This document shows, piece after piece, positions 2,061-43,642 of a stretch of 64,000 bases of DNA (position 1 is its first letter; every line of letters starts with the position of its first letter). A program made the position numbers and the translations under genes. The notes under the pieces are model-generated. The model had not been told where the DNA came from. It ran no database searches and saw only the letters and a list, made by a program, of their open reading frames with translations. Where the stretch lies: contig NC_056538.1 of the NCBI RefSeq assembly GCF_910596095.1, positions 7,434,001-7,498,000 on the forward strand. The letters run 5' to 3'. This stretch comes from Thunnus maccoyii (lineage: Eukaryota > Chordata > Actinopteri > Scombriformes > Scombridae).

Positions 2061-5830
<3,770 letters not shown>

Positions 5831-8705: not shown

Positions 8706-8861
8706 TGGATTTGTCCGAAGGTTTTAAAAAAAATCTGCCATATGTTATATCTTATTTGTTTCATCTGTCCGAAAAACAAAGTGTCAAAACCTCAAGTAGT
8801 GGTTTTACAAGTTGTCGTGTTATGTGCTGTTATGTATTTCTTGGTCGTGTGCAGTGACTTT

Positions 8862-9068
8862 CTGGAGTCTTGTTGGAGGTGCTGGTAGGTGGATTTTTTT
8901 ACCTTTAGACAGAGCCAGGCTAGCTGTTTCTCTCTGTTTCCAATGTTTGTGCTGACAAAGCGGTAACTTCATATTTAACATACAGACATGAAAGTGGCAA
9001 AATTCTTGGCAAGAAAGTAAATAAGTGTATATCTTAAAATGTTGAACAATTTCTTTAAAAAAGAGCCA
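8862..9068 (+). repeat. Dispersed teleost repeat, first direct copy of unit 1
   Basis: It carries AGAGCCAGGCTAGCTGTTTC and ACATGAAAGTGGCAAAATTC. The same block is present at the same place in every unit, and a second copy (CTAAGCTAAGCTAACCAGCT, TTTCCCAAAATGTCAAAC) follows at 9230-9450. An inverted third copy lies behind each gene (11020-11180 in unit 1). I recognise it as a common teleost interspersed repeat; its class is not resolved. Confidence 0.65.
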
Positions 9069-9497
9069 TCACAAGAATTTAACCAGCTATCTTCAATTAC
9101 AGTTTATTGAAAATTTGAATTGAATTGAATTATTAAATAAAATAATGCTTCAAAGTTCCAGACACTAGCTTTGTAGACTCTTGTTGTCATAATGATAAAA
9201 CATTAAGTCATCATGTTATGGGAATAGTTAATTAGCGAGCTTTAGAAGTACTGGTACACAAATTTTGTTACCTTTGGACAGAACCACACTAGCTGTTTCC
9301 CCTACTTTCAGTCTTTGTGCTAAGCTAAGCTAACCAGCTGCTTGCTCCAACTATAGATTTATCCTACAGACATGAGCATGTTATCAATCTTCTCATCTAA
9401 CTCTCACTAAGAAAGCAAGCATATTTCCCAAAATGTCAAACAATTCATATAAAGATTCATAAGATTGATATGGATACTTTGGGAAATTTATGCCATC

Positions 9498-9866
9498 TCA
9501 TGAAAATAGATTGTCCCATGTCTGCTGTTCTCTTGCAAGATCCACATCCTCTTTTTTCTTCCAGAAGGCATCCAAAGAAAAGTAGTACAACAGCGGATCC
9601 AGACAGCAGTTCACAGAAGCAAGACATACCAAAGGCGTAATCTTATCTCTCTTAATTGTAAGCACACCAACCGACACAGGCAAGAAACATATGGTGAACA
9701 TCACCAAGTTCATGGCAAAAATCAGCATGACATTCACCTTGTTGTTGACCTTTGCAGAGTCATTGAGACGTCTGTGTAGACTGCAAGACACCAAAACAGT
9801 GGACACAAGGTTGACTGTCAGCAGGGTGACCACTAGCACAAGATGAAAGTATGACAGTGCTGATCC

Positions 9867-9899
<33 letters not shown>

Positions 9900-10406
9900 A
9901 TGCTGTCCACGAAATTCAAAACAGGTAGATTCACTGGAGTTGTTCAAGTTTTTTGCAAGGACCAGTCCCTCTGGTATGTTCACCACGAGCACAAACAGCC
10001 ATACGAGTGCAACAGATTTCCAGGCGTTGGAAGCAGTTCGCAGATGGCGTGACCTCAGAGGATAAACCACAGCCAGCAGCCGATCCACGCTGATGAGGGT
10101 GATGAAGATGGAGCTCGAGCGGATGTTGTTGCGAAAGAGCATCGTGATACAGTTGCATGCCTTTGAGCTCAGAGGCCAGGTTCCTGTGGTGTAAAAGTAG
10201 ACCTTCATGGGCAAGGAGATGACCAGCAGCAGGTCTGAGATCGCCAGGTTGACCATGAAGATGGCATTGGAGGATTTGAGGCTGTGGCGGCGAAGCAGAA
10301 TCCACAGTGACACAGCATTGAGAGGCAAACCCAGCACCATAACAGATCCAAACACCACAGCATAAGCCTGATTTGGCTCAGGTCTATACTCCTCACTGTT
10401 GTTCAT
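9498..10406 (-). CDS. P2Y-like class A GPCR (GPR55/LPAR-type), copy A, 302 aa
   Basis: Single-exon coding sequence with seven hydrophobic helices (TM1 about 15-38, TM2 48-68, TM3 85-113, TM4 129-147, TM5 184-208, TM6 226-250, TM7 256-277). Class A landmarks: N30 (1.50), D58 (2.50), C84 (3.25) paired with C162 in loop 2, DRL at 108-110 in place of DRY, CFLP at 240-243, DPLLY at 270-274. CFLP and DPxxY point to the purinergic/lysophospholipid branch. The TM5 proline is missing. N2, N155 and N156 are sequons. Ten consecutive Gln follow RGQH in loop 2, coded by a CAG tract. The tail ends REQQTWDNLFS, eight residues longer than all other copies. Upstream of the ATG the minus strand reads TTTTTCTCATCAG then GTAGAC, a good splice acceptor, so a 5'UTR intron is likely. 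GPR55 identity rests on position beside itm2c and is tentative; ligand unknown. Confidence 0.88.
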
Positions 10407-11473
10407 GTCTACCTGATGAGAAAAACAATGTTTGTGTGTGCTTTATTGAACACTGCAGCCAAACACGACACATTAGTTCCTCCCTCTGCTCTTGTTCTGG
10501 GTGAAGTAGGCTGGTGAGAAATGTAACAGGAAAGCTGTGCGACTCAACTCAGGAACTGTGATCATAATCATGATTATTGATGATGACTGTCATTATTTTG
10601 ATGACAATTTTAAAGGTCACATGATCTGAAATGTCTTACGCACATAGACCCCTCTTATCAGGGTGTGGGTTAACCATCACAGCTCACATAGAGGAAACTG
10701 CATCTGTGTCTCCATTTTAATGTAATACTGAAGATAATCAAGATACTTGATCTCAGTATATTGAAGAGTTTTTTTATTGTCGGAGGTGGACCGAATCTAT
10801 ATTTAGTATTTAAATCTATATTTAATTGATACTTAATACAATTAATATTTACAATGCTTGTCTCAACAAAAAATAATGTAAGATTTACAGAAGAGACACA
10901 CAAGAAAGTTCTCCTCAAATATACTGTATGTAATAAAACTTTAAAGTAGCAGTCAAATTTCCTTATTTCTGTATTTAAGATGAAAAAATCAACCCATGTT
11001 TTCTATTCATTTTAAAGGAATAGTTCTATAAATATGCTTATTCACTTCCTTGCAGAGACATCACTGACTCTAAATATGAAGCTAGAGTCAGTCGTCAGTT
11101 AGTTTAGTTCAGAGCAACCAGCCAGGCTCTGTCTGAAGCTACCAGCACATCTAAAGCTCACTTTAGGCTTTCCTCAGCGTTACTTTTGCTGAGAAAAGCT
11201 TAGGGCTGAAACGCGTGCATCATTAAAGAAGTGATGTAGACTTATCTGTGAGTGTTGACGACTCCTTTTGTTATTTTTGTGGTGGGCATCCATTACTCTG
11301 TAAAGACTGTGAGTTGAGTACGCCAGTTCTGTTGTTTAAGTGTAAAGACAAAACAGCACAATCTTGTCTCCAAGAAATTACCTCCATATACTATTAATTT
11401 GTTTTGCCAATAATATTTTGAAGAGAAGCATTAATTGCTGCCTGGATTATGTTTATTTGCAATGTTTTTTCAG

Positions 11474-13070: not shown

Positions 13071-13855
13071 AAGTGGATTTTGTATCAAACAAGTGGATAT
13101 TGTAGTCAAAAAAACTAATATGTTGTCAATGAACATGTTCAGTGTCGACATTCTGCGACTTGGTAAATGTGTCAAAACTTCAAATTGTGGTTTTACAAGT
13201 TGTCGTGTTATGTGCTGTTATGTATTTCTTGGTTGTGTGCAGTGACTTTCTGGAGTCTTGTTGGAGGTGCTGGTAGGTGGATTTCTTTTACCTTTGGACA
13301 GAGCCAGGCTAGCTGTTTCCCTCTGTTTCCAGGTTTTGTACTTAGATAAGCGGTAACTTCATATTTAGCATATAGACATGAAAGTGGCAAAATTCTTGGC
13401 AAGAAAGTAAATAAGTGTATATCTTCAATGTTGAACAATTTCTTAAAAAAAGAGCCATCACAAGAATTTAATCCGCTACCTTCAATTACAGTTTATTGAA
13501 AAAAAGGAATAAAATAATGCTTCAAAGTTCTAGGCACAAGTCATCATGTTATGGGAATAGTTAATTAGTGAACTTTAGAAGTACTGGTACACAAATTTTG
13601 TTACCTTTGGACAGAACCAGACTAGCTGTTTCCCCCTACTTTCAGTCTTTGTGCTAAGCTAAGCTAAGCAGCTGCTTGCTCCAACTATAGATTTATCCTA
13701 CAGACATGAGCATGTTATCAATCTTCTCATCTAACTCCCACTAAGAAAGCAAGCATATTTCCCAAAATGTCAAACAATTCATATAAAGATTCATAAGATT
13801 GATATGGATCCATTGGGAAATTTATGCCATCTCATGAAAATAGATTGTCCCTTGT

Positions 13856-14704
13856 CTACTGTTCTCTTGCAAGATCCACATCCTCTTTTTTCTTCCAGAA
13901 GGCATCCAAAGAAAAGTAGTACAACAGTGGATCCAGACAGCAGTTCACAGAAGCAAGACATACCAAAGGCGTAATCTCATGTCTCTTAATTGTAAGCACA
14001 CCAACCGACACAGGCAAGAAACATATGGTGAACATCACCAAGTTCATGGCAAAAATCAGCATGACATTCACCTTGTTGTTGACCTTTGCAGAGTCATTGA
14101 GATGTCTTTGTAGACTGCAAGACACCAAAGCAGTGGACACAAGGTTGACTGTCAGCAGGGTGACCACTAGCACAAGCTGAAAGTATCGAGGCCACTGCTG
14201 CTGTCTACGAAATTCAAAACAGGTAGATTCACTGGAGTTGTTTAATTTTCTTGCATAGGCCAGTCCCTCTGGTATGTTCACCATGAGCACAAACAGCCAA
14301 ACAAGTGCAACAGATTTCCAGGTGTTGGAAGCAGTTCGCAGATGGCGTGACCTCAGAGGATAAACCACAGCCAGCAGCCGATCCACGCTGATGAGGGTGA
14401 TGAAGATGGAGCTCGAGCGGATGTTGTTGCGAAAGAGCATCGTGATACATGTGCATGCCTTTGAGCTCAGAGGCCAGGTTCCTGTGGCGTATAAATAGAC
14501 CCTCATGGGCAAGGAGATGACCAGCAGCAGGTCTGAGATCGCCAGGTTGACCATGAAGATGGCATTGGGGGATTTGAGGCTGTGGCGGCGAAGCAGAATC
14601 CACAGTGACACAGCATTGAGAGGCAAACCCAGCACCATAACAGATCCAAACACCACAGCATAAGCCTGATTTGGCTCAGGTCTATAATCCACACTGTTGT
14701 TCAT
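13856..14704 (-). CDS. P2Y-like class A GPCR, copy B, 282 aa
   Basis: Intact single-exon receptor, start MNNSVDYRPEP, all landmarks of copy A retained (N30, D58, C84, DRL, CFLP, DPLLY). Loop 2 is short, FRRQQQWPRYF, without a glutamine expansion. Differences near the pocket include L71, A73 and T85. Two cytoplasmic changes, VSCSLQRHLND in loop 3 and M141 in TM4, are private to this copy. The tail stops at REQ because the CAG codon that copy A reads as Gln is TAG. The 3' flank and the last part of the gene match copy D almost perfectly at an offset of 10,931 bp, which suggests recent gene conversion or duplication. Function as for copy A by similarity only. Confidence 0.88.
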   Translation of the reverse strand: MNNSVDYRPEPNQAYAVVFGSVMVLGLPLNAVSLWILLRRHSLKSPNAIFMVNLAISDLLLVISLPMRVYLYATGTWPLSSKACTCITMLFRNNIRSSSIFITLISVDRLLAVVYPLRSRHLRTASNTWKSVALVWLFVLMVNIPEGLAYARKLNNSSESTCFEFRRQQQWPRYFQLVLVVTLLTVNLVSTALVSCSLQRHLNDSAKVNNKVNVMLIFAMNLVMFTICFLPVSVGVLTIKRHEITPLVCLASVNCCLDPLLYYFSLDAFWKKKEDVDLAREQ

Positions 14705-16068: not shown

Positions 16069-17665
16069 AAGGGGAGAACGGGGTAACATGAGCCAATGTT
16101 TACATTTGATGATTTTACTGTAAAATAAAAGTGTGTTTGTTTCAAATAATAGTAACTATATATACCTCAGGTTGTTGTGTACCCATGGAAATTAAAACAA
16201 TTTATCTAATTATTATGGTTTTAGAACAATGACTCATCAAAGTCCTAGTCCTATGGCACAACTTACACCAAGGTAGGGGTAAAATGAGCATGGGAATGAG
16301 GTAAATTGAGCACTCTAGCAGTGAATAGTGCTACCATTAAATACTGATATAAAAATGACACAAAATCAAACACTTTTGAGATAATTTTGAACTTTATTAA
16401 TGCCATCAATTTAACAAAGGCAAAAACACATATTTTTAAATAAATTATATGTTTGTATCCTGTTGTTCAACATCTTACCTCAACATTTTCAGTAAAGATT
16501 AAACTGTGATCTTTGTGTGTTAGATAGAGAAAGAATGTGTGTGTAAATGTACAGACAGGTGACAAATTAAAGGAAAAACTGGTCCAGGTCTGAATGCTTG
16601 ACCCCTACAGTGAGGGGATCTGGTGACTCTGTTATGCTGTGGAGGCCATTTTGCTGGCATGGTTTGGGTCCATTTGTCCACTTAGAGGGAAGGATCACTG
16701 CTGATCAATACAAAGTTGTTGTGAGTGATCACCTTTATCCTATGATGAAACATTTCTATCTTGATGGGAGTGGTCTCTTCCAGGATGACAATGCCCCCAT
16801 CCATAGGGGCACGAGAGGTCACTGAATGGTTTGATGAGTATGAAAATGATGTGAATCATATGCTATGGCCCTCACAGTCACCAGATCTCAACCCAATCGA
16901 AAACTATGGGAGATTTTGGACTGAGGTGTTAGACAGCGCTCTCCACCACCATCATCAAAATGAGGGAATATCTTTTTGAAGATTGATGTTCATCCCTCCA
17001 GAAGAGTTCAGAGATTTGTAGAATCAATGCTAAGGTGTATTGAAGCTGTTCTGGCAGCACATGGTGGCCCAACACCTTACTAAAACACTTTATGTTGGCT
17101 TTTCTTTTAATTTGTCACCCATCTGTATGTAGAGCATGTTTGTGTGTGGCTTAAACTTAACATTAGTCAACAATAAGGTATTTATTCATCAACATTGTAA
17201 TACTTGTAACAGTGATCAAACATTAACATGAACATTATCTCTAGTCTCTAGAATATCAGAAAATAATTTGGGGGGTAAATTAAGCTTTGACTCAACTTGC
17301 CCCAACATCTCTGGCACGTTTTACCCCACAAAACTGTTTCACACAGTGGCTCAGATCCACAATTACGCTAAGTTTATGACATTGTTTTGTAGCTTACACT
17401 GCCTTAAATTAACATGTAACAATGTCCAAAACTTATCTATTGTAATTAAGATACAAGACTGATAACTTTAGCAACATGATGAATTCACTTGGCATGAAAA
17501 AAAACATTTTTTTTGTTCTGTTTTGCTGACGACTCTCTCCATGTGCTTGAGTCCAAGATGGATTGAGTAATGTGAACTATACTTTCTTAATTTGTTGTCA
17601 CATGATTACTTTTGTTTATGGTTACCTAGATAAATGGGGTGGCTCATTTTACCCCGTTCTCCCTT
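16069..17665. mobile_element. TIR transposon, unit 2, with nested Tc1 derivative
   Basis: Same ends as the unit 1 element, here in the cleanest form: left AAGGGGAGAACGGGGTAAC, right GGTAAAATGAGCC on the opposite strand up to CCCTT. Full length with the insert. Confidence 0.75.
16552..17125 (+). mobile_element. Deleted Tc1-type transposon, copy 2
   Basis: TA flanks at 16550-16551 and 17126-17127 and the same TIRs as copy 1. The segment around SPDLNPIEN, with the third catalytic residue, is in frame here as part of a 72-aa stretch, but the join to the FQDDNAPIH frame is shifted as in the other copies. Confidence 0.85.
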
Positions 17666-18489: not shown

Positions 18490-19347
18490 CTACTGTTCTC
18501 TTGCAAGATCCACATCCTCTTTTTTCTTCCAGAAGGCATCCAAAGAAAAGTAGTACAACAGCGGATCCAGACAGCAGTTCACAGAAGCAAGACATACCAA
18601 AGGCGTAATCTCATGTCTCTTAATTGTAAGCACACCAACCGACACAGGCAAGAAACATATGGTGAACATCACCAAGTTCATGGCAAAAATCAGCATGACA
18701 TTCACCTTGTTGTTGACCTTTGCAGAGTCATTGAGACGTCTGTGTAGAGTGCAAGACACCAAAGCAGTGGACACAAGGTTGACTGTCAGCAGGGTGACCA
18801 CTAGCACAAGATGAAGATAAGACATTGCTGATTGAGGCCACTGCTGCGTATTAAATTCAAAACAGGTAGATTCATTGACACTTTTTAAGTTTTTTGCAAG
18901 CTCCAGTCCCTCTGGTATGTTCACCACGAGCACAAACAGCCAAACAAGAGCAACAGATTTCCAGGCGTTGGAAGCAGTTCGCAGATTGCGTGACCTCAGA
19001 GGATAAACCACAGCCAGCAGCCGATCCACGCTGATGAAGGTGATGAAGATGGAGCTCGAGCGGATGTTGTTGAGAAAGAGCATTGTGATATATATGCATG
19101 CCTTTGAGCTCAGAGGCCAGGTTCCTGTGGCGTAATAATAGACCCTCATGGGCAAGGAGATGACCAGCAGCAGGTCTGAGATCGCCAGGTTGACCATGAA
19201 GATGGCATTGGGGGATTTGAGGCTGTGGCGGCGAAGCAGAATCCACAGTGACACAGCATTGAGAGGCAAACCCAGCACCATAACAGATCCAAACACCACA
19301 GCATAAGCCTGATTTGGCGCAGTTCTATACTCCTCACTGTTGTTCAT
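18490..19347 (-). CDS. P2Y-like class A GPCR, copy C, 285 aa
   Basis: Intact receptor, start MNNSEEYRTAPNQ. Relative to copy A the pocket-facing positions differ: Y71 and A73 after TM2, I85-Y86 and L92 at the outer end of TM3, F104 deeper. Loop 2 is of a second type, KSVNESTCFEFNTQQWPQSA, with one sequon. H121 after the DRL region is N here. TM6-TM7 are identical to copies B, D and F. The tail ends at REQ. The 5' flank is the short type (ATCATAATCATGATTATGAT). Confidence 0.88.
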   Translation of the reverse strand: MNNSEEYRTAPNQAYAVVFGSVMVLGLPLNAVSLWILLRRHSLKSPNAIFMVNLAISDLLLVISLPMRVYYYATGTWPLSSKACIYITMLFLNNIRSSSIFITFISVDRLLAVVYPLRSRNLRTASNAWKSVALVWLFVLVVNIPEGLELAKNLKSVNESTCFEFNTQQWPQSAMSYLHLVLVVTLLTVNLVSTALVSCTLHRRLNDSAKVNNKVNVMLIFAMNLVMFTICFLPVSVGVLTIKRHEITPLVCLASVNCCLDPLLYYFSLDAFWKKKEDVDLAREQ

Positions 19348-21028: not shown

Positions 21029-22407
21029 GAACACTGTTGTTCATGTCTACCTGATAAGAAAAACAATGTTTGTGTGTGCTTTATTGAACACTGCAGCCAA
21101 ACACAACACATTAGTTCCTCCCTCTGCTCTTGTTCTGGTTGAAGTAGGCTGGTGAGAAACGTAACAGGAAAGCTGTGCGACTCAACCCACAAACTGTGGT
21201 CACTGTGGTCTTAAAAAATGGAACAGTTTATATTCTGCATGTTTAGTGCAATTTTAAAATGTAATACCTTGTTACTACCTAAATAAAGATATATATTTTT
21301 AATCATATAACCTTAGTAGTTTGGAGAGAATTGACATTTATGGTTAATCAGTAAATGATTTATTGAAGTTCATGGTAACAGGTGTAATGTTTAAGCACAT
21401 CTGTGACGATTTCTTACCAACAGCATCAAAATAATCAGTTATTATGCTGAAAATTTTAAAGGTCACACGATCTAAATGTGTACATTTGAAAATACCCCTG
21501 AGATTTACAGTGACTAGTATGATGAGAATATGTATCTATTAGGCCTATGTTGAGGAAATGTCTTATGCACATAGACCCCTCTTATCAGGATGTGGGTTAA
21601 CCATCACAGCTCACATAGAGGAAACTGCATCTGTGTCTCCATTTTAATGTAACACTGAAGATAATCAAGATACTTGATCTCAGTATATTGAAGAGTTTTT
21701 TTCTTGTCAGAGGTGGACCGAATCTATATTTAGTATTTAAATCTATATTTAATTGATACTTAATACAATTAATATTTGTAATGCTTGTCTCAACAAAAAA
21801 TAATGTAAGATTTACAGAAGAGACACACAAGAAAGTTCTCCTCAAACATACTGTATGTAATAAAACTTTAAAATAGCAGTTGAATTTCCTTATTTCTGTA
21901 TTTAAGATGAAAAAAAATTAACCCATGGTTCCTATTCATTTTAAAGGAATAGTTCTATAAATATGCTTATTCACTTCCTTGCAGAGACATCACTGACTGT
22001 GCGCTAAATATGAAGCTAAAGTCAGTCATCAGTTAGTTTAGTTCAGAGCAACTAGCCAGGCTCTGTCTGAAGCTACCAGCACATCTAAAGCTCACTTTAG
22101 GCTTTCCTCAGCGTTACTTTTGCTGAGGAAAGCTTAGGACTGAAATGCATGCGTCATTAAAGAAGTGATGTAGACTTATCTGTGAGTGTTGACGACTCCT
22201 TTTGTTATTTTTGTGGTGGGCATCCATTACTCTGTAAAGACTGTGAGTTGAGTATGCCAGTTCTGTTGTTTAAGTGTAAAGACAAAACAGCACAATCTGG
22301 TCTCCAATAAATTACCTCCATATACTGTTAATTTGTTTTGCCAATAACATTTTGAGGGGAAGCATTAATTGCTGCCTGGATTATGTTTATTTGCAATGTT
22401 TTTTCAG

Positions 22408-24001
22408 AAGGGGAGAACGGGGTAACATGAGCCAATGTTTACATTTGATGATTTTACTGTAAAATAAAAGTGTGTTTGTTTCAAATAATAGTAACTATAT
22501 ATACCTCAGGTTGTTGTGTACCCATGGAAATTAAAACAATTTATCTAATTATTATGATTTTAGAACAATGACTCATCAAAAAAGTTAGTCCTATGGCACA
22601 ACTTACACCAAGGTAGGGGTAAAATGAGCATGGGAATGAGGTAAATTGAGCACTCTAGCAGTGAATAGTGTTACCATTAAATACTGACATAAAAATGACA
22701 AAATCAAACACTTTTGAGATAATTTTGAACTTTATTAATGCCATCAATTTAACAAAGGCAAAAACACATATTTTTAAATAAATTATATGTTTGTATCCTG
22801 TTGTTCAACATCTTACCTCAACATTTTCAGTAAAGATTAAACTGTGATCTTTGTGTGTTAGATACAGAAAGAATGTGTGTGTAAATGTAGAGACAGGTGA
22901 CAAATTAAAGGAAAAACTGGTCCAGGTCTGAATGCTTGACCCCTACAGTGAGGGGATCTGGTGACTCTGTTATGCTGTGGAGGGCATTTTGCTGGCATGG
23001 TTTGGGTCCATTTGTCCACTTAGAGGGAAGGATCACTGCTGATCAATACAATTGTTGTGAGTGATCACCTTTATCCTAAGATGAAACATTTCTATCCTGA
23101 TGGGAGTGGTCTCTTCCAGGATGACAATGCCCCCATCCATAGGGGCACGAGAGGTCACTGAATGGTATGATGAGTATGAAAATGATGTGAATCATATGCT
23201 ATGGCCCTCACAGTCACCAGATCTCAACCCAATTGAAAACTATGGGAGATTTTGGACTGAGGTGTTAGACAGCGCTCTCCACCACCATCATCAAAATGAG
23301 GGAATATCTTTTTGAAGATTGATGTTCATCCCTCCAGAAGAGTTCAGAGATTTGTAGAATCAATGCTAAGGTGTATTGAAGTTTTTCTGGCAGCACATGG
23401 TGGCCCAACACCTTACTAAAACACTTTATGTTGGCTTTTCTTTTAATTTGTCACCCGTCTGTATGTAGAGCATGTTTGTGTGTGGCTTAAACTTAACATT
23501 AGTCAACAATTAGGTATTTATTCATCAACATTGTAATACTTGTAACAGTGATCAAACATTAACATGAACATTATCTCTAGTCTCTAGAATATCAGAAAAT
23601 AATTTGGGGGGTAAATTAAGCTTGGACTCAACTTGCCCCAACATCTCTGGCACGTTTTACCCCACAAAACTGTTTCACACAGTGGCTCAGATCCACAATT
23701 ACGCTAAGTTTATGACATTGTTTGGTAGCTTACACTGCCTTAAATTAACATGTAACAATGTCCAAAACTTATCTATTGCAATTAAGATACAAGACTGATA
23801 ACTTTAGCAACATGATGAATTCACTTGGCATGAAAAAAAACATTTTTTTTGTTCTGTTTTGCTGACGACTCTCTCCATGTGCTTGAGTCCAAGATGGATT
23901 GAGTAATGTGAACTATACTTTCTTAATTTGTTGTCACATGATTACTTTTGTTTATGGTTACCTAGATAAATGGGGTGGCTCATTTTACCCCGTTCTCCCT
24001 T
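22408..24001. mobile_element. TIR transposon, unit 4, with nested Tc1 derivative
   Basis: Both ends present: left AAGGGGAGAACGGGGTAAC, right ending CGTTCTCCCT. Full length. Confidence 0.75.
22890..23461 (+). mobile_element. Deleted Tc1-type transposon, copy 4
   Basis: TA at 22888-22889 and 23462-23463. The left TIR begins GAGACAGGTGACAAATTAAA (first base changed). A small deletion in the ACAAAGTTGTTG segment (23050) is private to this copy and breaks the upstream transposase frame. Confidence 0.85.
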
Positions 24002-24786
24002 AAGTGGATTTTGTATCAAACAAGTGGATATTGTAGTCAAAAAAACTAATATGTTGTCAATGAACATGTTCAGTGTCGACATTCTGCGACTTGGTAAATG
24101 TGTCAAAACTTCAAATTGTGGTTTTACAAGTTGTCGTGTTATGTGCTGTTATGTATTTCTTGGTTGTGTGCAGTGACTTTCTGGAGTCTTGTTGGAGGTG
24201 CTGGTAGGTGGATTTCTTTTACCTTTGGACAGAGCCAGGCTAGCTGTTTCCCTCTGTTTCCAGGTTTTGTACTTAGATAAGCGGTAACTTCATATTTAGC
24301 ATATAGACATGAAAGTGGCAAAATTCTTGGCAAGAAAGTAAATAAGTGTATATCTTCAATGTTGAACAATTTCTTAAAAAAAGAGCCATCACAAGAATTT
24401 AATCCGCTACCTTCAATTACAGTTTATTGAAAAAAAGGAATAAAATAATGCTTCAAAGTTCTAGGCACAAGTCATCATGTTATGGGAATAGTTAATTAGT
24501 GAACTTTAGAAGTACTGGTACACAAATTTTGTTACCTTTGGACAGAACCAGACTAGCTGTTTCCCCCTACTTTCAGTCTTTGTGCTAAGCTAAGCTAAGC
24601 AGCTGCTTGCTCCAACTATAGATTTATCCTACAGACATGAGCATGTTATCAATCTTCTCATCTAACTCCCACTAAGAAAGCAAGCATATTTCCCAAAATG
24701 TCAAACAATTCATATAAAGATTCATAAGATTGATATGGATCCATTGGGAAATTTATGCCATCTCATGAAAATAGATTGTCCCTTGT

Positions 24787-25644
24787 CTACTGTTCTCTTG
24801 CAAGATCCACATCCTCTTTTTTCTTCCAGAAGGCATCCAAAGAAAAGTAGTACAACAGTGGATCCAGACAGCAGTTCACAGAAGCAAGACATACCAAAGG
24901 CGTAATCTCATGTCTCTTAATTGTAAGCACACCAACCGACACAGGTAAGAAACATATGGTGAACATCACCAAGTTCATGGCAAAAATCAGCATGACATTC
25001 ACCTTGTTGTTGACCTTTGCAGAGTCATTGAGACGTCTGTGTAGAGTGCAAGACACCAAAGCAGTGGACACAAGGTTGACTGTCAGCAGGGTGACCACTA
25101 GCACAAGATGAAGATAAGACATTGCTGATTGAGGCCACTGCTGCGTATTAAATTCAAAACAGGTACATTCATTGACACTTTTTAAGTTTTTTGCAAGCTC
25201 CAGTCCCTCTGGTATGTTCACCACGAGCACAAACAGCCAAACAAGAGCAACAGATTTCCAGGTGTTGGAAGCAGTTCGCCGATGGCGTGACCTCAGAGGA
25301 TAAACCACAGCCAGCAGCCGATCCACACTGATGAAGGTGATGAAGATGGAGCTCGAGCAGATGTTGTTGAGAAAGAGCATTGTGATACATGTGCATGCCT
25401 TTGAGCTCAGAGGCAAGGTTCCTGTGGCGTAATAATAGACCCTCATGGGCAAGGAGATGACCAGCAGCAGGTCTGAGATCGCCAGGTTGACCATGAAGAT
25501 GGCATTGGGGGATTTGAGGCTGTGGCGGTGAAGCAGAATCCACAGTGACACAGCATTGAGAGGCAAACCCAGCACCATAACAGATCCAAACACCACAGCA
25601 TAAGCCTGATTTGGCGCAGTTCTATACTCCTCACTGTTGTTCAT
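24787..25644 (-). CDS. P2Y-like class A GPCR, copy D, 285 aa
   Basis: Open along its length and close to copy C (same start MNNSEEYRTAPNQ and same loop 2 type), but with several unusual changes: R39H after TM1, W77L in the loop 1 motif that is Trp in all other copies, R96C at position 3.37 of TM3, and NECTCFEF in loop 2, which adds a second Cys beside the conserved C162-equivalent. The extra cysteines could disturb the TM3-loop 2 disulfide. The DRL, CFLP and DPLLY motifs are intact. It may be a receptor with altered function or one beginning to decay. Confidence 0.85.
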   Translation of the reverse strand: MNNSEEYRTAPNQAYAVVFGSVMVLGLPLNAVSLWILLHRHSLKSPNAIFMVNLAISDLLLVISLPMRVYYYATGTLPLSSKACTCITMLFLNNICSSSIFITFISVDRLLAVVYPLRSRHRRTASNTWKSVALVWLFVLVVNIPEGLELAKNLKSVNECTCFEFNTQQWPQSAMSYLHLVLVVTLLTVNLVSTALVSCTLHRRLNDSAKVNNKVNVMLIFAMNLVMFTICFLPVSVGVLTIKRHEITPLVCLASVNCCLDPLLYYFSLDAFWKKKEDVDLAREQ

Positions 25645-28135: not shown

Positions 28136-29601
28136 GAACACTGTTGTTCATGTCTACCTGATGAGAAAAACAATGTTTGTGTGTGCTTTATTGAACACTG
28201 CAGCCAAACACAACACATTAGTTCCTCCCTCTGCTCTTGTTCTGGGTGAAGTAGGCTGGTGAGAAACGTAACAGGAAAGCTGTGCGACTCAACCCACAAA
28301 CTGTGGTCACTGTGGTATTAAAAAATGGAACAGTTTATATTCTGTATGTTTAGTGCAATTTTAAAATGTAATACCTTGTTACTACCTAAATAAAGATATA
28401 TGTTTTTAATCATATGACCTTAGTAGTTTGGAGAGAATTGACATTTATGGTTAATCAGTAAATGATTTATTGAAGTTCATGGTAACAGGTGTAATGTTTA
28501 AGCACATCTGTGGTGATTTCTTACCAACAGCATCAAAATAATCAGTTATTATGCTGAAAATTTTAAAGGTCACATGATCTAAATACCCTTGAGATTTACA
28601 GTGACTAGTATGATGAGAATATGTACCTATTAGGCCTATGTTGTGGAAATGTCTTATGCACATAGACCCCTCTTATCAGGATGTGGGTTAACCATCACAG
28701 CTCACATAGAGGAAACTGCATCTGTGTCTCCATTTTAATGTAATACTGAAGATAATCGAGATACTTGATCTCAATATATTGAAGAGTTTTTTTATTGTCA
28801 GAGGTGGACTGAATCTATATTTAGTATTTATATCTATATTTAATTGATACTTAATACAATAAATATTTGTAATGCTTGTCTCAACAAAAAATAATGTAAG
28901 ATTTACAGAAGAGACACACAAGAAAGTTCTCCTCAAACATACTGTATGTAATAGTACTTTAAAATAGCAGTTGAATTTCCTTATTTCTGTATTTAAGATG
29001 AAAAAATCAACCCATGTTTTCTATTCATTTTAAAGGAACAGTTCTTCAAAATATGCTTATTCACTTCCTTGCAGAGACATCACTGACTGTGCACTAAATA
29101 TGAAGCTAGAGTCAGTCGTCAGTTAGTTTAGTTCAGAGCAGCTAGCCAGGCTCTGTCTGAAGCTACCAGCACATCTAAAGCTCACTTTAGGCTTTCCTCA
29201 GCGTTACTTTTGCTGAGAAAAGCTTAGGACTGTAACGCGTGCATCATTAAAGAAGTAATATAGACTTTTCTGTGAGTGTTGACGACTCCTTTTGTTATTT
29301 TTGTGGTGGGCATCCATTACTCTGTAAAGACTGTGAGTTGAGTACGCCAGTTCTGTTGTTTAAGTGTAAAGACAAAACAGCACAATCTGGTCTCCAAAAA
29401 ATTACCTCCATATACTATTAATTTGTTTTGCCAATAATATTTTGAAGAGAAGCATTAATTGCTGCCTGGATTATGTTTCTTTGCAATGCTTTTTCAGTAG
29501 CCTAAGTGGATTTTGTATCACACAAGTGGATATTGTGGGGGAAAAAATTGAAATGTTCTCAATGAACACGTTCAGTGTCGACATTCTGCTACTTGGCAAA
29601 T
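28136..29601 (-). pseudogene. Array unit 6: receptor gene body deleted and transposon absent
   Basis: It begins with the same start-codon stub and junction as unit 4, then a long-type 5' flank. At the place where the other units carry the TIR transposon it reads CAGTAGCCTAAGTGG (29495-29508): two TA dinucleotides separated by GCC. It is the shortest unit, with neither receptor nor transposon. Confidence 0.85.
29498..29504. other. Excision-type footprint TAGCCTA at the transposon site
   Basis: Filled sites read CAGTA-element-TAAGTGG. This unit reads CAGTA GCC TAAGTGG. Two copies of TA with three bases between them is what cut-and-paste Tc1/mariner excision is known to leave. A never-occupied site would be expected to hold one TA. 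Recombination between units could mimic it. Confidence 0.6.
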
Positions 29602-30344
29602 GTGTCAAAACTTCAAATTCTGGTTTTACAAGTTGTCGTGTTATGTGCTGTTATGTATTTCTTGGTCGTGTGCAGTGACTTTCTGGAGTCTTGTTGGAGG
29701 TGCTGGTAGGTGGATTTCTTTTACCTTTGGACAGAGCCAGGCTAGCTGTTTCCCTCTGTTTCCAGGTTTTGTACTTAGATAAGCGATAACTTCATATTTA
29801 GCATATAGACATGAAAGTGGCAAAATTCATGGCAAGAAAGTAAATAAGTGTATATCTTAAAATGTTGAACAATTTCTTAAAAAAGAGCCATCACAAGAAT
29901 TTAACCAGCTATCATCAATTACAGTTTATTGAAAATTTGAATTGAATTGAATTATTAAATAAAATAATGCTTCAAAGTTCCAGATACTAGCTTCGTAGAC
30001 CCTTGTTGTCATAATGATAAAACATTCAGTTATCATGTTATGGGAATAGTTAATTAGTGAACTTTAGAAGTACTGGTACACAAATTTTGTTACCTTTGGA
30101 CAGAACCAGACTAGCTGTTTCCCCCTACTTTCAGTCTTTGTTCTAAGCTAAGCTAACCAGCTGCTTGCTCCAACTACAGATTTATCCTACAGACATGAGC
30201 ATGTTATCAATCTTCTCATCTAACTCTCACCAAGAAAGCAAGCATATTTCCCAAAATGTCAAACTATTCATATAAAGATTCATAAGATTGATATGGATCC
30301 TTTGGGAAATTTATGCCATCTCATGAAAATAGATTGTCCCTTGT

Positions 30345-31229
30345 CTACTGTTCTCTTGCAAGATCCACATCCTCTTTTTTCTTCCAGAAGGCATCCAAAG
30401 AAAAGTAGTACAACAGCGGATCCAGACAGCAGTTCACAGAAGCAAGACATACCAAAGGCGTAATCTCATGTCTCTTAATTGTAAGCACACCAACCGACAC
30501 AGGCAAGAAACATATGGTGAACATCACCAAGTTCATGGCAAAAATCAGCATGACATTCACCTTGTTGTTGACCTTTGCAGAGTCATTGAGACGTCTGTGT
30601 AGAGTGCAAGACACCAAAGCAGTGGACACAAGGTTGACTGTCAGCAGGGTGACCACTAGCACAATCTGAAAGTATGACAGTGCTAATCGAAGCTGCTCCT
30701 GCTGCTGCTGCTGCTGCTGCTGATGCTGTCCACGAAATTCAAAACAGGTAGATTCACTGGAGTTGTTCAAGTTTCCTGCAAGGACCATTCCCTCTGGTAT
30801 GTTCACCACGAGCACAAACAGCCAAACAAGAGCAACAGATTTCCAGGCGTTGGAAGCAGTTCGCAGATGGCGTGACCTCAGAGGATAAACCACAGCCAGC
30901 AGCCGATCCACACTGATGAAGGTGATGAAGATGGCGCTCAAGCGGATGTTGTTGCGAAAGAGCATCGTGATACAGTTGCATGCCTTTGAGCTCAGAGGCC
31001 AGGTTCCTGTGGCATATAAGTAGACCCTCATGGGCAAGGAGATGACCAGCAGCAGGTCTGAGATCGCCAGGTTGACCATGAAGATGGCATTGGAGGATTT
31101 GAGGCTGTGGCGGCGAAGCAGAATCCACAGTGACACAGCATTGAGAGGCAAACCCAGCACCATAACAAATCCAAACACCACAGCATAAGCCAGATTTGGC
31201 TCAGGTCTATAATCCACACTGTTGTTCAT
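30345..31229 (-). CDS. P2Y-like class A GPCR, copy E, 294 aa
   Basis: Intact receptor, start MNNSVDYRPEPNLAY. Loop 2 is of the copy A type, with RGQH followed by a run of seven Gln, then E-Q-LRLALSY; the Gln run is shorter than in copy A and interrupted, so the CAG tract has changed length. In TM3, S97 is L and S99 is A. TM1 has GFVMV instead of GSVMV. N30, D58, DRL, CFLP and DPLLY are intact and the tail ends at REQ. Its 5' flank is the long type. Confidence 0.88.
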   Translation of the reverse strand: MNNSVDYRPEPNLAYAVVFGFVMVLGLPLNAVSLWILLRRHSLKSSNAIFMVNLAISDLLLVISLPMRVYLYATGTWPLSSKACNCITMLFRNNIRLSAIFITFISVDRLLAVVYPLRSRHLRTASNAWKSVALVWLFVLVVNIPEGMVLAGNLNNSSESTCFEFRGQHQQQQQQQQEQLRLALSYFQIVLVVTLLTVNLVSTALVSCTLHRRLNDSAKVNNKVNVMLIFAMNLVMFTICFLPVSVGVLTIKRHEITPLVCLASVNCCLDPLLYYFSLDAFWKKKEDVDLAREQ

Positions 31230-34111: not shown

Positions 34112-34969
34112 CTACTGTTCTCTTGCAAGATCCACATCCTCTTTTTTCTTCCAGAAGGCATCCAAAGAAAAGTAGTACAACAGTGGATCCAGACAGCAGT
34201 TCACAGAAGCAAGACATACCAAAGGCGTAATCTCATGTCTCTTAATTGTAAGCACACCAACCGACACAGGTAAGAAACATATGGTGAACATCACCAAGTT
34301 CATGGCAAAAATCAGCATGACATTCACCTTGTTGTTGACCTTTGCAGAGTCATTGAGACGTCTGTGTAGACTGCAAGACACCAAAGCAGTGGACACAAGA
34401 TTGACTGTCAGCAGGGTGACCACTAGCACAAGATGAAGATAAGACATTGCTGATTGAGGCCACTGCTGCTCATTAAATTCAAAACAGGTAGATTCATTGA
34501 CACTTTTTAAGTTTTTTGCAAGCTCCAGTCCCTCTGGTATGTTCACCACGAGCACAAACAGCCAAACAAGAGCAACAGATTTCCAGGCGTTGGAAGCAGT
34601 TCGCCGATGGCGTGACCTCAGAGGATAAACCACAGCCAGCAGCCGATCCACGCTGATGAAGGTGATGAAGATGGAGCTCGAGCGGATGTTGTTGAGAAAG
34701 AACATTGTGATATATATGCATGCCTTTGAGCTCAGAGGCCAGGTTCCTGTGGCGTAGTAATAGACCCTCATGGGCAAGGAGATGACCAGCAGCAGGTCTG
34801 AGATCGCCAGGTTGACCATGAAGATGGCATTGGAGGATTTGAGGCTGTGGCGGCAAAGCAGAATCCACATTGACACAGCTTTGAGAGGCAAACCCAGCAC
34901 CATAACAGATCCAAACACCACAGCATAAGCCAGATTTGGCTCAGGTCTATAATCCACACTGTTGTTCAT
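34112..34969 (-). CDS. P2Y-like class A GPCR, copy F, 285 aa
   Basis: Open reading frame without breaks, start MNNSVDYRPEPNLAY, loop 2 KSVNESTCFEFNEQQWPQSA. The TM1 motif reads GLPLKAVSMWILLC: the class A hallmark N1.50 (N30) is Lys, L34 is Met and R39 is Cys. TM3 begins CIYITMFF with L92. All other hallmarks remain. Loss of N1.50 in a receptor that is otherwise well kept is unusual and may affect folding or signalling. Nearly identical to copy G. Confidence 0.87.
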   Translation of the reverse strand: MNNSVDYRPEPNLAYAVVFGSVMVLGLPLKAVSMWILLCRHSLKSSNAIFMVNLAISDLLLVISLPMRVYYYATGTWPLSSKACIYITMFFLNNIRSSSIFITFISVDRLLAVVYPLRSRHRRTASNAWKSVALVWLFVLVVNIPEGLELAKNLKSVNESTCFEFNEQQWPQSAMSYLHLVLVVTLLTVNLVSTALVSCSLHRRLNDSAKVNNKVNVMLIFAMNLVMFTICFLPVSVGVLTIKRHEITPLVCLASVNCCLDPLLYYFSLDAFWKKKEDVDLAREQ

Positions 34970-35363
34970 GTCTACCTGATGAGAAAAACAATGTTTGTGT
35001 GTGCTTTATTGAACACTGCAGCCAAACACAACACATTAGTTCCTCCCTCTGCCCTTTTTCTGGGTGAAGTAGGCTGTTGAGAAATTCAACAGGAAAGCTG
35101 TGTGACTCAACTCAGGAACTGTGATCATAATCATGATTATGATGATAAGTTGTATGGTGAGAAAATGTACCTGTTAGGCCTATGTTGAGGAAATGTCTTA
35201 CGGACATAGACCCCTCTTATCAGGATGTGGATTAACCATCACAGCTCACATAGAGGAAACTGCAACTCTGTCTCCATTTTAATGTAATACTGAAGATAAT
35301 CAAGATACTTGATCTCAGTATATTGGATATATTGAAGATTTTTTTTCTTGTTGGAGGTGGAGA

Positions 35364-35555
35364 TTTAAGATTGATGTTCATCCCTCCAGAAGAGTCATTT
35401 TTTGCTCTGTTTTGTTGACGACTCTCTCCATGTGCTTGAGTCCAAGATGGATTGAGTAATGTGAAATATACTTTCTTAATTTGTTGTCACATGATTACTT
35501 TTGTTTCTGATGACCTAGATAAATGGGGTGGCTCATTTTACCCTGTTCTCCCCTA
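35364..35555. mobile_element. TIR transposon remnant, unit 8
   Basis: A large deletion joins the 5' flank (CTTGTTGGAGGTGGAG) to GATTGATGTTCATCCCTCC from the nested Tc1 and then to the right part of the TIR element, ending CTGTTCTCCCCTAAGTGG. Only about 190 bp are left. Confidence 0.7.
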
Positions 35556-36339
35556 AGTGGATTTTGTATCAAACAAGTGGATATTGTAGTCAAAAAAATT
35601 AATATGTTGTCAATGAACATGTTAAGTATCGACATTCTGCGACTTGGTAAATGTGTCAAAACTTCAAATTGTGGTTTTACAAGTTGTCGTGTTATGTGCT
35701 GTTATGTATTTCTTGGTCGTGTGCAGTGACTTTCTGGAGTCTTGTTGGAGGTGCTGGTAGGTGGATTTCTTTTACCTTTGGACAGAGCCAGGCTAGCTGT
35801 TTCCCTCTGTTTCCAGGGTTTGTACTTAGATAAGCGGTAACTTCATATTTAGCATATAGACATGAAAGTGGCAAAATTCTTGGCAAGAAAGTAAATAAGT
35901 GTATATCTTAAATGTTGAACAATTTCTTAAAAAAAAGAGCCATCACAAGAATTAACCTGCTATCTTCAATTACACTTTATTGAAAAAAAGGAATAAAATA
36001 ATGCTTCAAAGTTCTAGGCACAAGTTATCATGTTATGGGAATAGTTAATTAGCGAGCTTTAGAAGTACTGGTACACAAATTTTGTTACCTTTGGACAGAA
36101 CCACACTAGCTGTTTCCCCCTATTTTCAGTCTTTGTTCTAAACTAAGCTAACCAGCTGCTTGCTCCAACTACAGATTTATCCTACAGACATGAGCATGTT
36201 ATCAATCTTCTCATCTAACTCCCACCATGAAAGCAAGCATATTTCCCAAAATGTCAAACTATTCATATAAAGATTCATAAGATTGATATGGATCCATTGG
36301 GAAATTTATGCCATCTCATGAAAATAGATTGTCCCTTGT

Positions 36340-37197
36340 CTACTGTTCTCTTGCAAGATCCACATCCTCTTTTTTCTTCCAGAAGGCATCCAAAGAAAAG
36401 TAGTACAACAGTGGATCCAGACAGCAGTTCACAGAAGCAAGACATACCAAAGGCGTAATCTCATGTCTCTTAATTGTAAGCACACCAACCGACACAGGTA
36501 AGAAACATATGGTGAACATCACCAAGTTCATGGCAAAAATCAGCATGACATTCACCTTGTTGTTGACCTTTGCAGAGTCATTGAGACGTCTGTGTAGACT
36601 GCAAGACACCAAAGCAGTGGACACAAGATTGACTGTCAGCAGGGTGACCACTAGCACAAGATGAAGATAAGACATTGCTGATTGAGGCCACTGCTGCTCA
36701 TTAAATTCAAAACAGATAGATTCATTGACACTTTTTAAGTTTTTTGCAAGCTCCAGTCCCTCTGGTATGTTCACCACGAGCACAAACAGCCAAACAAGAG
36801 CAACAGATTTCCAGGCGTTGGAAGCAGTTCGCCGATGGCGTGACCTCAGAGGATAAACCACAGCCAGCAGCCGATCCACGCTGATGAAGGTGATGAAGAT
36901 GGAGCTCGAGCGGATGTTGTTGAGAAAGAACATTGTGATATATATGCATGCCTTTGAGCTCAGAGGCCAGGTTCCTGTGGCGTAGTAATAGACCCTCATG
37001 GGCAAGGAGATGACCAGCAGCAGGTCTGAGATCGCCAGGTTGACCATGAAGATGGCATTGGAGGATTTGAGGCTGTGGCGGCAAAGCAGAATCCACATTG
37101 ACACAGCTTTGAGAGGCAAACCCAGCACCATAACAGATCCAAACACCACAGCATAAGCCAGATTTGGCTCAGGTCTATAATCCACACTGTTGTTCAT
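36340..37197 (-). CDS. P2Y-like class A GPCR, copy G, 285 aa
   Basis: Same protein as copy F, including K30, except for one residue: loop 2 reads NESICFEF instead of NESTCFEF. The single base behind it is shared with the neighbouring copy H, which also reads NESICF. Gene and flanks repeat copy F with a period of exactly 2,228 bp from about 34070 to 38525. The T-to-I change removes neither the sequon NES nor the conserved Cys. Confidence 0.87.
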   Translation of the reverse strand: MNNSVDYRPEPNLAYAVVFGSVMVLGLPLKAVSMWILLCRHSLKSSNAIFMVNLAISDLLLVISLPMRVYYYATGTWPLSSKACIYITMFFLNNIRSSSIFITFISVDRLLAVVYPLRSRHRRTASNAWKSVALVWLFVLVVNIPEGLELAKNLKSVNESICFEFNEQQWPQSAMSYLHLVLVVTLLTVNLVSTALVSCSLHRRLNDSAKVNNKVNVMLIFAMNLVMFTICFLPVSVGVLTIKRHEITPLVCLASVNCCLDPLLYYFSLDAFWKKKEDVDLAREQ

Positions 37198-37591
37198 GTC
37201 TACCTGATGAGAAAAACAATGTTTGTGTGTGCTTTATTGAACACTGCAGCCAAACACAACACATTAGTTCCTCCCTCTGCCCTTTTTCTGGGTGAAGTAG
37301 GCTGTTGAGAAATTCAACAGGAAAGCTGTGTGACTCAACTCAGGAACTGTGATCATAATCATGATTATGATGATAAGTTGTATGGTGAGAAAATGTACCT
37401 GTTAGGCCTATGTTGAGGAAATGTCTTACGGACATAGACCCCTCTTATCAGGATGTGGATTAACCATCACAGCTCACATAGAGGAAACTGCAACTCTGTC
37501 TCCATTTTAATGTAATACTGAAGATAATCAAGATACTTGATCTCAGTATATTGGATATATTGAAGATTTTTTTTCTTGTTGGAGGTGGAGA

Positions 37592-37783
37592 TTTAAGATT
37601 GATGTTCATCCCTCCAGAAGAGTCATTTTTTGCTCTGTTTTGTTGACGACTCTCTCCATGTGCTTGAGTCCAAGATGGATTGAGTAATGTGAAATATACT
37701 TTCTTAATTTGTTGTCACATGATTACTTTTGTTTCTGATGACCTAGATAAATGGGGTGGCTCATTTTACCCTGTTCTCCCCTA
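37592..37783. mobile_element. TIR transposon remnant, unit 9
   Basis: Identical to the unit 8 remnant, 2,228 bp further on, with the same deletion junctions. Confidence 0.7.
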
Positions 37784-38567
37784 AGTGGATTTTGTATCAA
37801 ACAAGTGGATATTGTAGTCAAAAAAATTAATATGTTGTCAATGAACATGTTAAGTATCGACATTCTGCGACTTGGTAAATGTGTCAAAACTTCAAATTGT
37901 GGTTTTACAAGTTGTCGTGTTATGTGCTGTTATGTATTTCTTGGTCGTGTGCAGTGACTTTCTGGAGTCTTGTTGGAGGTGCTGGTAGGTGGATTTCTTT
38001 TACCTTTGGACAGAGCCAGGCTAGCTGTTTCCCTCTGTTTCCAGGGTTTGTACTTAGATAAGCGGTAACTTCATATTTAGCATATAGACATGAAAGTGGC
38101 AAAATTCTTGGCAAGAAAGTAAATAAGTGTATATCTTAAATGTTGAACAATTTCTTAAAAAAAAGAGCCATCACAAGAATTAACCTGCTATCTTCAATTA
38201 CACTTTATTGAAAAAAAGGAATAAAATAATGCTTCAAAGTTCTAGGCACAAGTTATCATGTTATGGGAATAGTTAATTAGCGAGCTTTAGAAGTACTGGT
38301 ACACAAATTTTGTTACCTTTGGACAGAACCACACTAGCTGTTTCCCCCTATTTTCAGTCTTTGTTCTAAACTAAGCTAACCAGCTGCTTGCTCCAACTAC
38401 AGATTTATCCTACAGACATGAGCATGTTATCAATCTTCTCATCTAACTCCCACCATGAAAGCAAGCATATTTCCCAAAATGTCAAACTATTCATATAAAG
38501 ATTCATAAGATTGATATGGATCCATTGGGAAATTAATGCCATCTCATGAAAATAGATTGTCCCTTGT

Positions 38568-39416
38568 CTACTGTTCTCTTGCAAGATCCACATCCTCTTT
38601 TTTCTTCCAGAAGGCATCCAAAGAAAAGTAGTACAACAGTGGATCCAGACAGCAGTTCACAGAAGCAAGACATACCAAAGGCGTAATCTCATGTGTCTCA
38701 AGTATAAGTAAACCAACCGATACAGGCAAGAAACATATGGTGAACATCACCAAGTTCATGGCAAAAATCAGCATGACATTCACCTTGTTGTTGACCTTTG
38801 CAGAGTCATTGAGACGTCTGTGTAGAGTGCAAGACACCAAAGCAGTGGACACAAGGTTGACTGTCAGCAGGCTGACCAGTAGCACAAGATGAAGATAAGC
38901 CTGTGCTGATTGCATCCTATGAATTTTAAAACAGATAGATTCATTGACACGTTTCAAGTTTCCTGCAAGGACCAATCCTTCTGGTATGTTCACCACGAGC
39001 ACAAACAGCCAAACAAGAGCAACAGATTTCCAGGCGTTGGAAGCAGTTCGCAGATGGCGTGACCTCAGAGGATAAACCACAGCCAGCAGCCGATCCACGC
39101 TGATGAGGGTGATGAAGATGGAGCTCGAGCGGATGTTGTTGCGAAAGAGCATTGTGATATATATGCATGCCTTTGAGCTCAGAGGCCAGGTTCCTGTGGT
39201 GTAAAAGTAGACCCTCATGGGCAAGGAGATGACTAGCAGCAGGTCTGAGATCGCCAGGTTGACCATGAAGATGGCATTGGAGGATTTGAGGCTGTGGCGG
39301 CGAAGCAGAATCCACAGTGACACAGCATTGAGAGGCAAACCCAGCACCATAACAGATCCAAACACCACAGCATAAGCCTGATTTGGCTCAGGTCTATAAT
39401 CCACACTGTTGTTCAT
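38568..39416 (-). CDS. P2Y-like class A GPCR, copy H, 282 aa
   Basis: Intact receptor at the right end of the array, start MNNSVDYRPEPNQAY with N30 present. It is the most distinct copy on the outside face: loop 2 reads KRVNESICFKIHRMQSAQAY, TM5 has LLVSLLTVN, and the TM6-loop 3 junction reads VGLLILETHEITP where all others have VGVLTIKR. DRL, CFLP and DPLLY are unchanged and the tail ends at REQ. The loop 3 change makes a different ligand or affinity conceivable; this is inference. Confidence 0.88.
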   Translation of the reverse strand: MNNSVDYRPEPNQAYAVVFGSVMVLGLPLNAVSLWILLRRHSLKSSNAIFMVNLAISDLLLVISLPMRVYFYTTGTWPLSSKACIYITMLFRNNIRSSSIFITLISVDRLLAVVYPLRSRHLRTASNAWKSVALVWLFVLVVNIPEGLVLAGNLKRVNESICFKIHRMQSAQAYLHLVLLVSLLTVNLVSTALVSCTLHRRLNDSAKVNNKVNVMLIFAMNLVMFTICFLPVSVGLLILETHEITPLVCLASVNCCLDPLLYYFSLDAFWKKKEDVDLAREQ

Positions 39417-40209
39417 GTCTACCTGATGAGAAAAACAATGTTTGTGTGTGCTTTATTGAACACTGCAGCCAAACACGACACATTAGTTCCTCCCTCTGCT
39501 CTTTATCTGGGTGAAGTAGGCTGGTGAGAAATGTAACAAGAAAGCTGTGTGACTCAACTCAGGAACTGTGATCATAATCATGATTATGATGATAAGTTGT
39601 ATGGTGAGAAAATGTACCTGTTAGGCCTATGTTGAGGAAATGTCTTACGGACATAGACCCCTCTTATCAGGATGTGGATTAGCCATCACAGCTCACATAG
39701 AGGAAACAGCATATGTGCCTCCATTTTAATGTAATACTGATGATAATCAAGATACTTGATCTCAGTATATTGTATATATTGTTTCTATTCATTATAAAGG
39801 AACAGTTCTACAAAATATGCTTATTCACTTGTCTCTTGCAGAGACATCACTGACTGTGCGCTAATTATGAAGCTAGAGTCAGTGGTCAGTTAGCGTCACT
39901 TTTGCTGAGGAATGCTTAGGGCTGAAATGTGTCCGTTTTTTAGCTGCTGTGCATCATTAAAGAAGTGATGTAGACTTATATGTGAGTGCTGACGACTCCT
40001 TTTGTTATTTTTGTGGTGGGCATCCATTTCTCTGTAAAGACTGTGGGTTGAGTACGCCAGTTCTGTTGTTTAAGTGTAAAGACAAAACAGCACAATCTTG
40101 TCTCCAAGAAATTACCTCCATATACTATTAATTTGTTTTGCCAATAACATGTTGAAGGGAAGCATTAATTGCTACCTGGATTATGTTTATTTGCAATGTT
40201 TTTTCAGTA

Positions 40210-43606: not shown

Positions 43607-43642
<36 letters not shown>

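Follow-up and report, generated by a model that had tools for sequence, protein, structure and literature searches.

What is the receptor that has been multiplied beside an itm2-type gene in the tuna Thunnus maccoyii, and what sets its copies apart from one another? We investigated this for a tandem array on the minus strand of a 64,000-nucleotide window of the genome (C6:7434001-7498000, the whole stretch analyzed; coordinates without a prefix are positions in it). The array consists of eight gene-bearing and two gene-less units, between which segments have been exchanged and from which genes have been lost, and its receptors combine a nearly constant core with a diversified outer face. We consider it probable that this is a birth-and-death array of orphan class A receptors, belonging to a fish lineage here called E, whose copies are tuned to different, probably anionic ligands via one conserved signaling core.

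The array and exchange between its units

Self-BLAST blocks delineate a ten-copy repeat family spanning 8778..40207 on the minus strand, in agreement with the 8781-40209 given in a preliminary description made from the letters of the sequence. That description had counted eight unbroken receptor genes on the minus strand and two units without a gene, and both counts hold: eight open reading frames (ORFs) of 282-302 amino acids (aa) are intact, a genome-wide search recovers the same eight without internal stops, and a 300-nt block upstream of the gene occurs in ten copies, those at 21517 and 28608 lacking a gene. The close similarity it reported is borne out by protein identities of 87.4-99.6% over the 28 pairs. 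The seven-helix proteins with DRL, CFLP and DPLLY motifs that it described are likewise recovered, with the motifs in all eight copies and the 7tm_1 domain (Pfam) in all three of the copies scanned (E 5.8e-33 or better).

From left to right the genes are c1 (9498..10406; 302 aa), with an 8-residue C-terminal extension and Lys at 2.60 (residue numbering of this kind was assigned by motif in this analysis); c2 (13856..14704; 282 aa); c3 (18490..19347; 285 aa); c4 (24787..25644; 285 aa), carrying W77L and R96C; c5 (30345..31229; 294 aa); c6 (34112..34969) and c7 (36340..37197), both of 285 aa, one amino acid apart and with Lys in place of N1.50; and c8 (38568..39416; 282 aa), which is divergent in extracellular loops 2 and 3 (ECL2, ECL3). 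A poly-glutamine run lies within ECL2 of c1 and c5 and is missing from the other six copies.

The units vary in length through the presence or absence of inner blocks, one of which holds a sub-cut-off DDE_3-like transposase remnant, and the last three are short and spaced by 2.22-2.23 kb. The most similar adjoining units are 99.24% rather than 100% identical over ~2.23 kb, which makes a plain duplication during assembly less likely. Mosaic flanks attest to the exchange of segments among the units: on one side of the gene c2 and c4 agree at all 330 bases, and on the other they differ at 14 of 160, the corresponding counts for c4 and c6 being 10 of 330 and 0 of 160. The two gene-less units, G1 (21029..24471) and G2 (28136..30025), both on the minus strand, have an identical deletion junction, down to a few extra bases, at which a downstream block adjoins the gene's first codons; G1 keeps the upstream block and these codons and then continues into a distant part of the unit. 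The common junction would be explained most simply if a single deletion occurred and the pair then arose by duplication.

The upstream block (35152..35361, minus strand, in the sixth unit) retains a donor-like GTGAG in all ten aligned copies, and an acceptor-like CAG directly precedes the ATG, identically in the eight genes. These two signals point to a candidate first non-coding exon in each unit, and the block might also include the promoter region. If each unit indeed has its own promoter and first exon, the copies would be separately expressible.

Across the 782-Mb assembly we found at least nine members of the family, namely the eight of the array and one singleton (79%), with the next match at 38%; 136 of the 575 first-look candidates were scored, and these counts are hence a lower bound. 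The C6 contig of this assembly measures 35,334,421, slightly off the 35,338,069 that the protein database gives for the proteins of the window. The singleton (C6:7188365-7189183) lies ~254 kb from the array, belongs to a second lineage, S, and shares 96-97% identity with a protein of T. thynnus. When the 30 kb surrounding it are compared with the window, the alignment is confined to the coding part. The nearest named relatives of the window proteins, among the matches listed, come from T. thynnus and T. albacares.

An orphan receptor clade and its lineages S and E

The preliminary description took the array for an amplified, itm2c-linked GPR55. An itm2-type gene does adjoin the array, and human GPR55 presumably adjoins ITM2C, but we consider this identification highly improbable. 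A human GPR55 query prefers a separate tuna gene at C12:15788081 (42%, E 1.9e-45) over the eight array copies (32-33%, E 3e-14 to 3e-11). The C12 gene stands beside another itm2-type gene and is identical over 245 aa to the T. albacares 'G-protein coupled receptor 55', a name also borne by most of the named proteins among its best 120 matches; it is grouped with human GPR55 in a 37-row tree (100/90). In the phylogeny with GPR55 and its relatives that had been suggested as a check, the array stands apart from the clade of fish and human GPR55 (100/97; 33 rows), and the approximately unbiased (AU) test rejects GPR55 as the sole sister of the array family (p-AU 0.019). The array and GPR55 have in common an itm2-type neighbor and the same broad receptor branch; however, they belong to different clades and the tuna GPR55 is a separate gene, and the GPR55 identity of the array is accordingly rejected. 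Orthology with the surviving GPR55 is refuted, but both may have an older tandem origin in one ancestral cluster.

Neither the wider group of GPR55 and GPR35 (p-AU 0.26) nor LPAR6, which is not the sister in the best tree (p-AU 0.118), is rejected as the sister of the array family. The family forms one clade (100/100) on a long branch in the 33-row tree, where it falls beside the single human LPAR5 row at 90/89, a node that is not starred; in the 37-row tree it is unplaced and apart from LPAR5. By sequence, the closest solved structures are those of LPAR6 and LPAR5 (122-130 bits), and GPR55 is absent from the top 60 of the 585 solved-structure matches. A fold search with an AlphaFold model (mean predicted local distance difference test score 79.7) returned generic class A matches (P2RY8, GPR17, opioid receptors and others), among which LPAR6 takes ranks 11, 16 and 27; the ligand class is thus not settled by structure. 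Taken by its sequences, the array family is best called an orphan fish clade of the lysophospholipid/P2Y branch, and it appears to lean weakly to LPAR5.

In the two lists of best 120 matches the named proteins come nearly all from ray-finned fishes. The closest carry the database names lpar5b, LPAR4-like or LPAR6-like, which conflict with one another; these fish receptors are the nearest in sequence and likewise belong to the weak grouping with human LPAR5, whereas the tuna locus is a multi-copy, diversifying cluster. The available text of PMC6504862 describes an 'lpar5b' group of gar and 15 fishes, and among its gar genes are ENSLOCP00000021495 (LPAR5A/B), 21496 (annotated lpar5b and placed with the 15 fishes) and 21497 (GPR55B); their consecutive numbers may point to an old receptor cluster. 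In the available text of PMC12049252 a trout 'lpar5', which may or may not belong with the array clade, is handled as an amino-acid receptor of the tongue and gut.

To place the array among its fish relatives we used a tree of 147 rows, made up of 125 rows, 30 of 55 further proteins and the singleton, less nine long-branched, partial or unnamed rows. Membership in the rhodopsin-type (class A) receptors is indicated by the 7tm_1 domain and by the landmarks N1.50, D2.50, C3.25, R3.50, W4.50, P6.50 and P7.50: those at 2.50, 3.25, 3.50 and 4.50 are present in all 147 rows, those at 6.50 and 7.50 in 146, and that at 1.50 in 144, being altered in a single row besides c6 and c7. The DRL motif is likewise universal, and R2.60, R3.37 and R3.33 occur in 143, 142 and 104 rows, respectively. 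A further hallmark is the short spacing of P6.50 and P7.50, which is 26-31 residues in 145 rows (P0016 and P0052 read 14 and 71) as against 39-46 in 19 of 25 non-family rows from human, zebrafish and tuna, the other six, including GPR35, being unmeasurable by the pattern. The top of transmembrane helix (TM) 6, ECL3 and the top of TM7 are together ~16 residues shorter than in LPAR6, and the TM6-TM7 connection is 28 residues in the array receptor versus 44 and 45 in LPAR6 and LPAR5. The array receptors share with these two, their best PDB matches, an aligned R2.60, which we take to have a role in LPA6 ligand binding; they differ from both in the DRL motif, and from LPAR6 in having Arg or Leu at 3.33 and Arg (Cys in c4) at 3.37, where LPAR6 has Tyr. 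Their C-terminal tails, other than that of c1, have 12 residues past the FW, with no Ser or Thr.

Percomorph fishes have both lineages, of which S is for the most part single-copy. Copy numbers in other fishes were drawn from the best 120 matches in a 90% clustered database and are lower bounds. Among the matches listed, lineage S comprises 63 rows from 61 species labels, of which 59 have a single copy and two have more than one, while lineage E and its relatives comprise 84 rows from 39 labels, of which 24 have a single row and 15 more than one; both lineages occur in 18 labels. The deepest split of the tree is weakly supported (24), and the division into S and E therefore rests mainly on the many species with one of each. 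Eight rows from Centroberyx, Polymixia and Myripristis branch alongside the remaining E rows and not within them. In two Perca species lineage S itself has two copies each (P0042, P0074, P0072, P0106) and is thus not always single; outer columns hold 70% and 62% of the differences within the two species.

Within a genus, the E copies tend to group together, separately from the copies of other genera. This is so for Thunnus (18 rows; 100* in the Shimodaira-Hasegawa-like approximate likelihood-ratio test) and for Scomber (14 rows, 100*), and further starred E clades are formed by Sebastes (8), cichlids (9), Centroberyx (6) and Centropristis (3). Hence, the lineage-specific expansion proposed for this fish stands as far as the tuna copies are concerned, but it is no peculiarity of tunas: counting copies in related fishes, as had also been proposed, revealed E clusters in Scomber, Sebastes, Centropristis and cichlids as well. 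Separate expansions in each genus would be the simplest reading of these trees. Within Thunnus, the partners of c8 are T. thynnus P0011 and T. albacares P0004, and that of c1 is T. thynnus P0012, which suggests that some copies are older than these species.

Amino-acid change at the outer face

We compared the eight tuna copies over the 278 codons common to all using our own implementation of the codon models M0, M1a and M2a, which is not PAML. The ratio of nonsynonymous to synonymous rates (omega) is 1.41 under M0. The positive-selection model M2a, with an omega of 6.8 on 21% of codons, improves on M1a by twice the log-likelihood difference (2dlnL) of 39.8 with one tree; when three segment trees are used, the value is 38.4. 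In 60 simulations of neutral evolution along mosaic trees the statistic reached at most 13.5, with a 95% point of 9.5. The outer, ligand-facing parts thus seem to have diverged under natural selection. Of the 24 sites with a posterior above 0.8, 18 are on the outer face (N-terminus, upper TM2 and TM3, ECL2), namely 5, 6, 13, 71, 73, 85 and 86 together with eleven between 149 and 179. The proportion of nonsynonymous differences (pN) follows the same pattern: it is 0.171 in ECL2 and the top of TM5, 0.085 in upper TM3, 0.076 in the N-terminus, 0.054 in ECL3 and 0.042 in upper TM2 and ECL1, falls to 0.01-0.03 in other stretches, and is 0 in lower TM2 and from TM7 to the tail. Outer columns, which are 35% of the sites, hold on average 74% of the differences between tuna copies and 59-79% in ten paralogue sets from ten fishes, tuna included (pairs below 2% distance are excluded from these means), as against 52% in pairs of lineage S. 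Residue 3.33 is Arg in four tuna copies and Leu in the other four; by genus or group it is L/R in Thunnus, I/L/R/V in Scomber, C/H/R/S in Sebastes and R only in cichlids.

These patterns suggest how the birth-and-death array favored here might work. A small anionic ligand, such as a lysophospholipid or another phosphate or carboxylate, would be bound in a pocket lined by Arg 2.60, 3.33 and 3.37; its preference would be altered from copy to copy via 2.63, 3.26/3.27, 3.33 and ECL2; and the DRL motif, TM5-TM7 and the very short tail would couple every copy to one common G protein. A repertoire of this kind would suit variable ligands from outside, or microbial and dietary lipids, better than one internal hormone, and the chemosensory or pathogen-facing role envisaged in the preliminary description fits the pattern of selection seen in the sequences. 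More tentatively, these receptors, with their shrunken ECL3 and predicted Arg-lined pocket, could be an unrecognized sensor family of ray-finned fishes that expands recurrently. In it, S would be conserved as one copy for an internal ligand and E repeatedly multiplied for variable anionic lipids from outside, be they dietary, microbial or conspecific in origin, which would make the family a lipid-branch counterpart of TAAR and OR; we regard this as possible without counting on it. Lineage-specific arrays of chemosensory and innate-immune G-protein-coupled receptors are known from the TAAR, OR, FPR and MRGPR families. The tuna array resembles these in its tandem birth-and-death and in the focus of change on ligand-facing parts; it differs in belonging to the lysophospholipid/P2Y branch and is not known to be expressed in sensory tissue.

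Several points weigh against diversification for ligand binding. The test is based on eight sequences, and its null simulations use three segment trees only and give a 95% point above the chi-square one. Six of the 24 flagged sites (39, 46, 104, 122, 128 and 200) are not outer, and intracellular loop 1 has a pN of 0.067 with no synonymous change at all. Mean pN (0.0459) is close to the corresponding synonymous proportion (pS, 0.0425) and to the divergence of the flanks (0.0418 and 0.0524; 28 pairs), while ECL2 has a high pS as well (0.1225), which hints at segments that are older or have been exchanged; together with the change in loop 1, this suggests that relaxed constraint and exchange explain a part of the pattern. 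The excess of segregating nonsynonymous over synonymous changes in outer regions (55:12 versus 17:11 elsewhere) has a Fisher p of only 0.036, for classes drawn after the alignment had been inspected. The outer share of 52% in lineage S comes from 151 pairs that are 2-22% distant, and the majority of these are further apart than the paralogues. When S rates are controlled for, per-site variability agrees modestly among Thunnus, Scomber and Sebastes (partial rho 0.17, 0.18 and 0.26) and hardly at all with cichlids (0.05 to -0.06). Finally, Lys at 1.50 in c6 and c7, and the loss of W77 and of R3.37 (now Cys) in c4, raise the possibility that some copies are weak or non-functional.

Neutral copy-number drift, with unequal crossing-over, exchange and relaxed constraint at tolerant loop sites but no functional diversification, would account for the near equality of mean pN, pS and flank divergence, for the gene missing from two units, for changes at the near-invariant N1.50 and at W77, and for the fact that S pairs also vary most at outer columns (ratio 2.1). 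We nevertheless think it rather unlikely, since M2a beats M1a, itself a model of neutrality plus constraint, far past the simulated null, outer pN is about twofold above flank divergence (summed over the outer regions), the frames are open in all eight remaining genes and a comparable outer bias recurs in other paralogue sets. The near constancy of the core, tail and upstream block, and the single residue between c6 and c7, could also be read as a dosage array, in which every copy supplies one and the same receptor, with a common ligand, and duplication raises output; the excess of amino-acid change at outer and pocket sites and the Arg/Leu split at 3.33 make this distinctly unlikely. A further alternative concerns the age of the array rather than its use: one old ancestral E array, homogenized in each genus by gene conversion, could give the same clustering as separate expansions, the genus-wise clusters of Thunnus, Scomber, Sebastes and cichlids then reflecting concerted evolution, and the exchange of segments between tuna units is in keeping with it. 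Against it stand the single E row in 24 of the 39 labels, among the matches listed, and the T. thynnus counterparts retained by c1 and c8, which indicate that any homogenization is incomplete; we hold this scenario, too, to be somewhat improbable.

Tandem receptor expansions are a known kind of locus; what is new is the receptor clade, its short ECL3, the contrast of S and E and the clusters in several genera. No published account of this expansion was found among the papers listed in the literature searched, the scope of which left most subscription papers outside. Receptors of the lipid branch are usually regarded as sensing internal mediators and as present in a single copy. Where one clade has a conserved single copy and a multiplied, diversified sister, nature in effect provides a mutagenesis series on how ligands are recognized, and the E arrays, with selection apparently mostly on the ligand-facing side, are candidates for an unrecognized repertoire of sensory or immune receptors in fishes of commercial importance.

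Neighboring genes

The array lies next to an itm2-type gene, which the preliminary description named itm2c. This left neighbor, an itm2c-like gene (3715..5880, plus strand; exon placement approximate), encodes a BRICHOS domain, and its exons correspond one by one to those of a second itm2-type gene, located on C12, with four matches at 71-86%. The second gene (BRICHOS at C12:15781931, within C12:15780001-15790000) is ~5 kb from the C12 GPR55. The window and the C12 region therefore look like two copies of one itm2c neighborhood, which would fit the teleost genome duplication. As the two neighborhoods hold different receptors, linkage to itm2c is not enough to call a receptor GPR55.

To the right, the array is followed by a peptidase S28 gene (43365..47692, plus strand; recognized in three of the ORFs scanned), which we take to be of the PRSS16/DPP7 type, and further on by a MEIS-type homeobox gene, recognized by a Meis_PKNOX_N exon at 62783-63016. 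The DDE_3 transposase remnant, presumably Tc1-like, lies at 16749..16979 on the plus strand inside a long unit of the array; its E-value is 8.2e-5 and its score of 22.9 bits is below the Pfam cut-off of 28.6.

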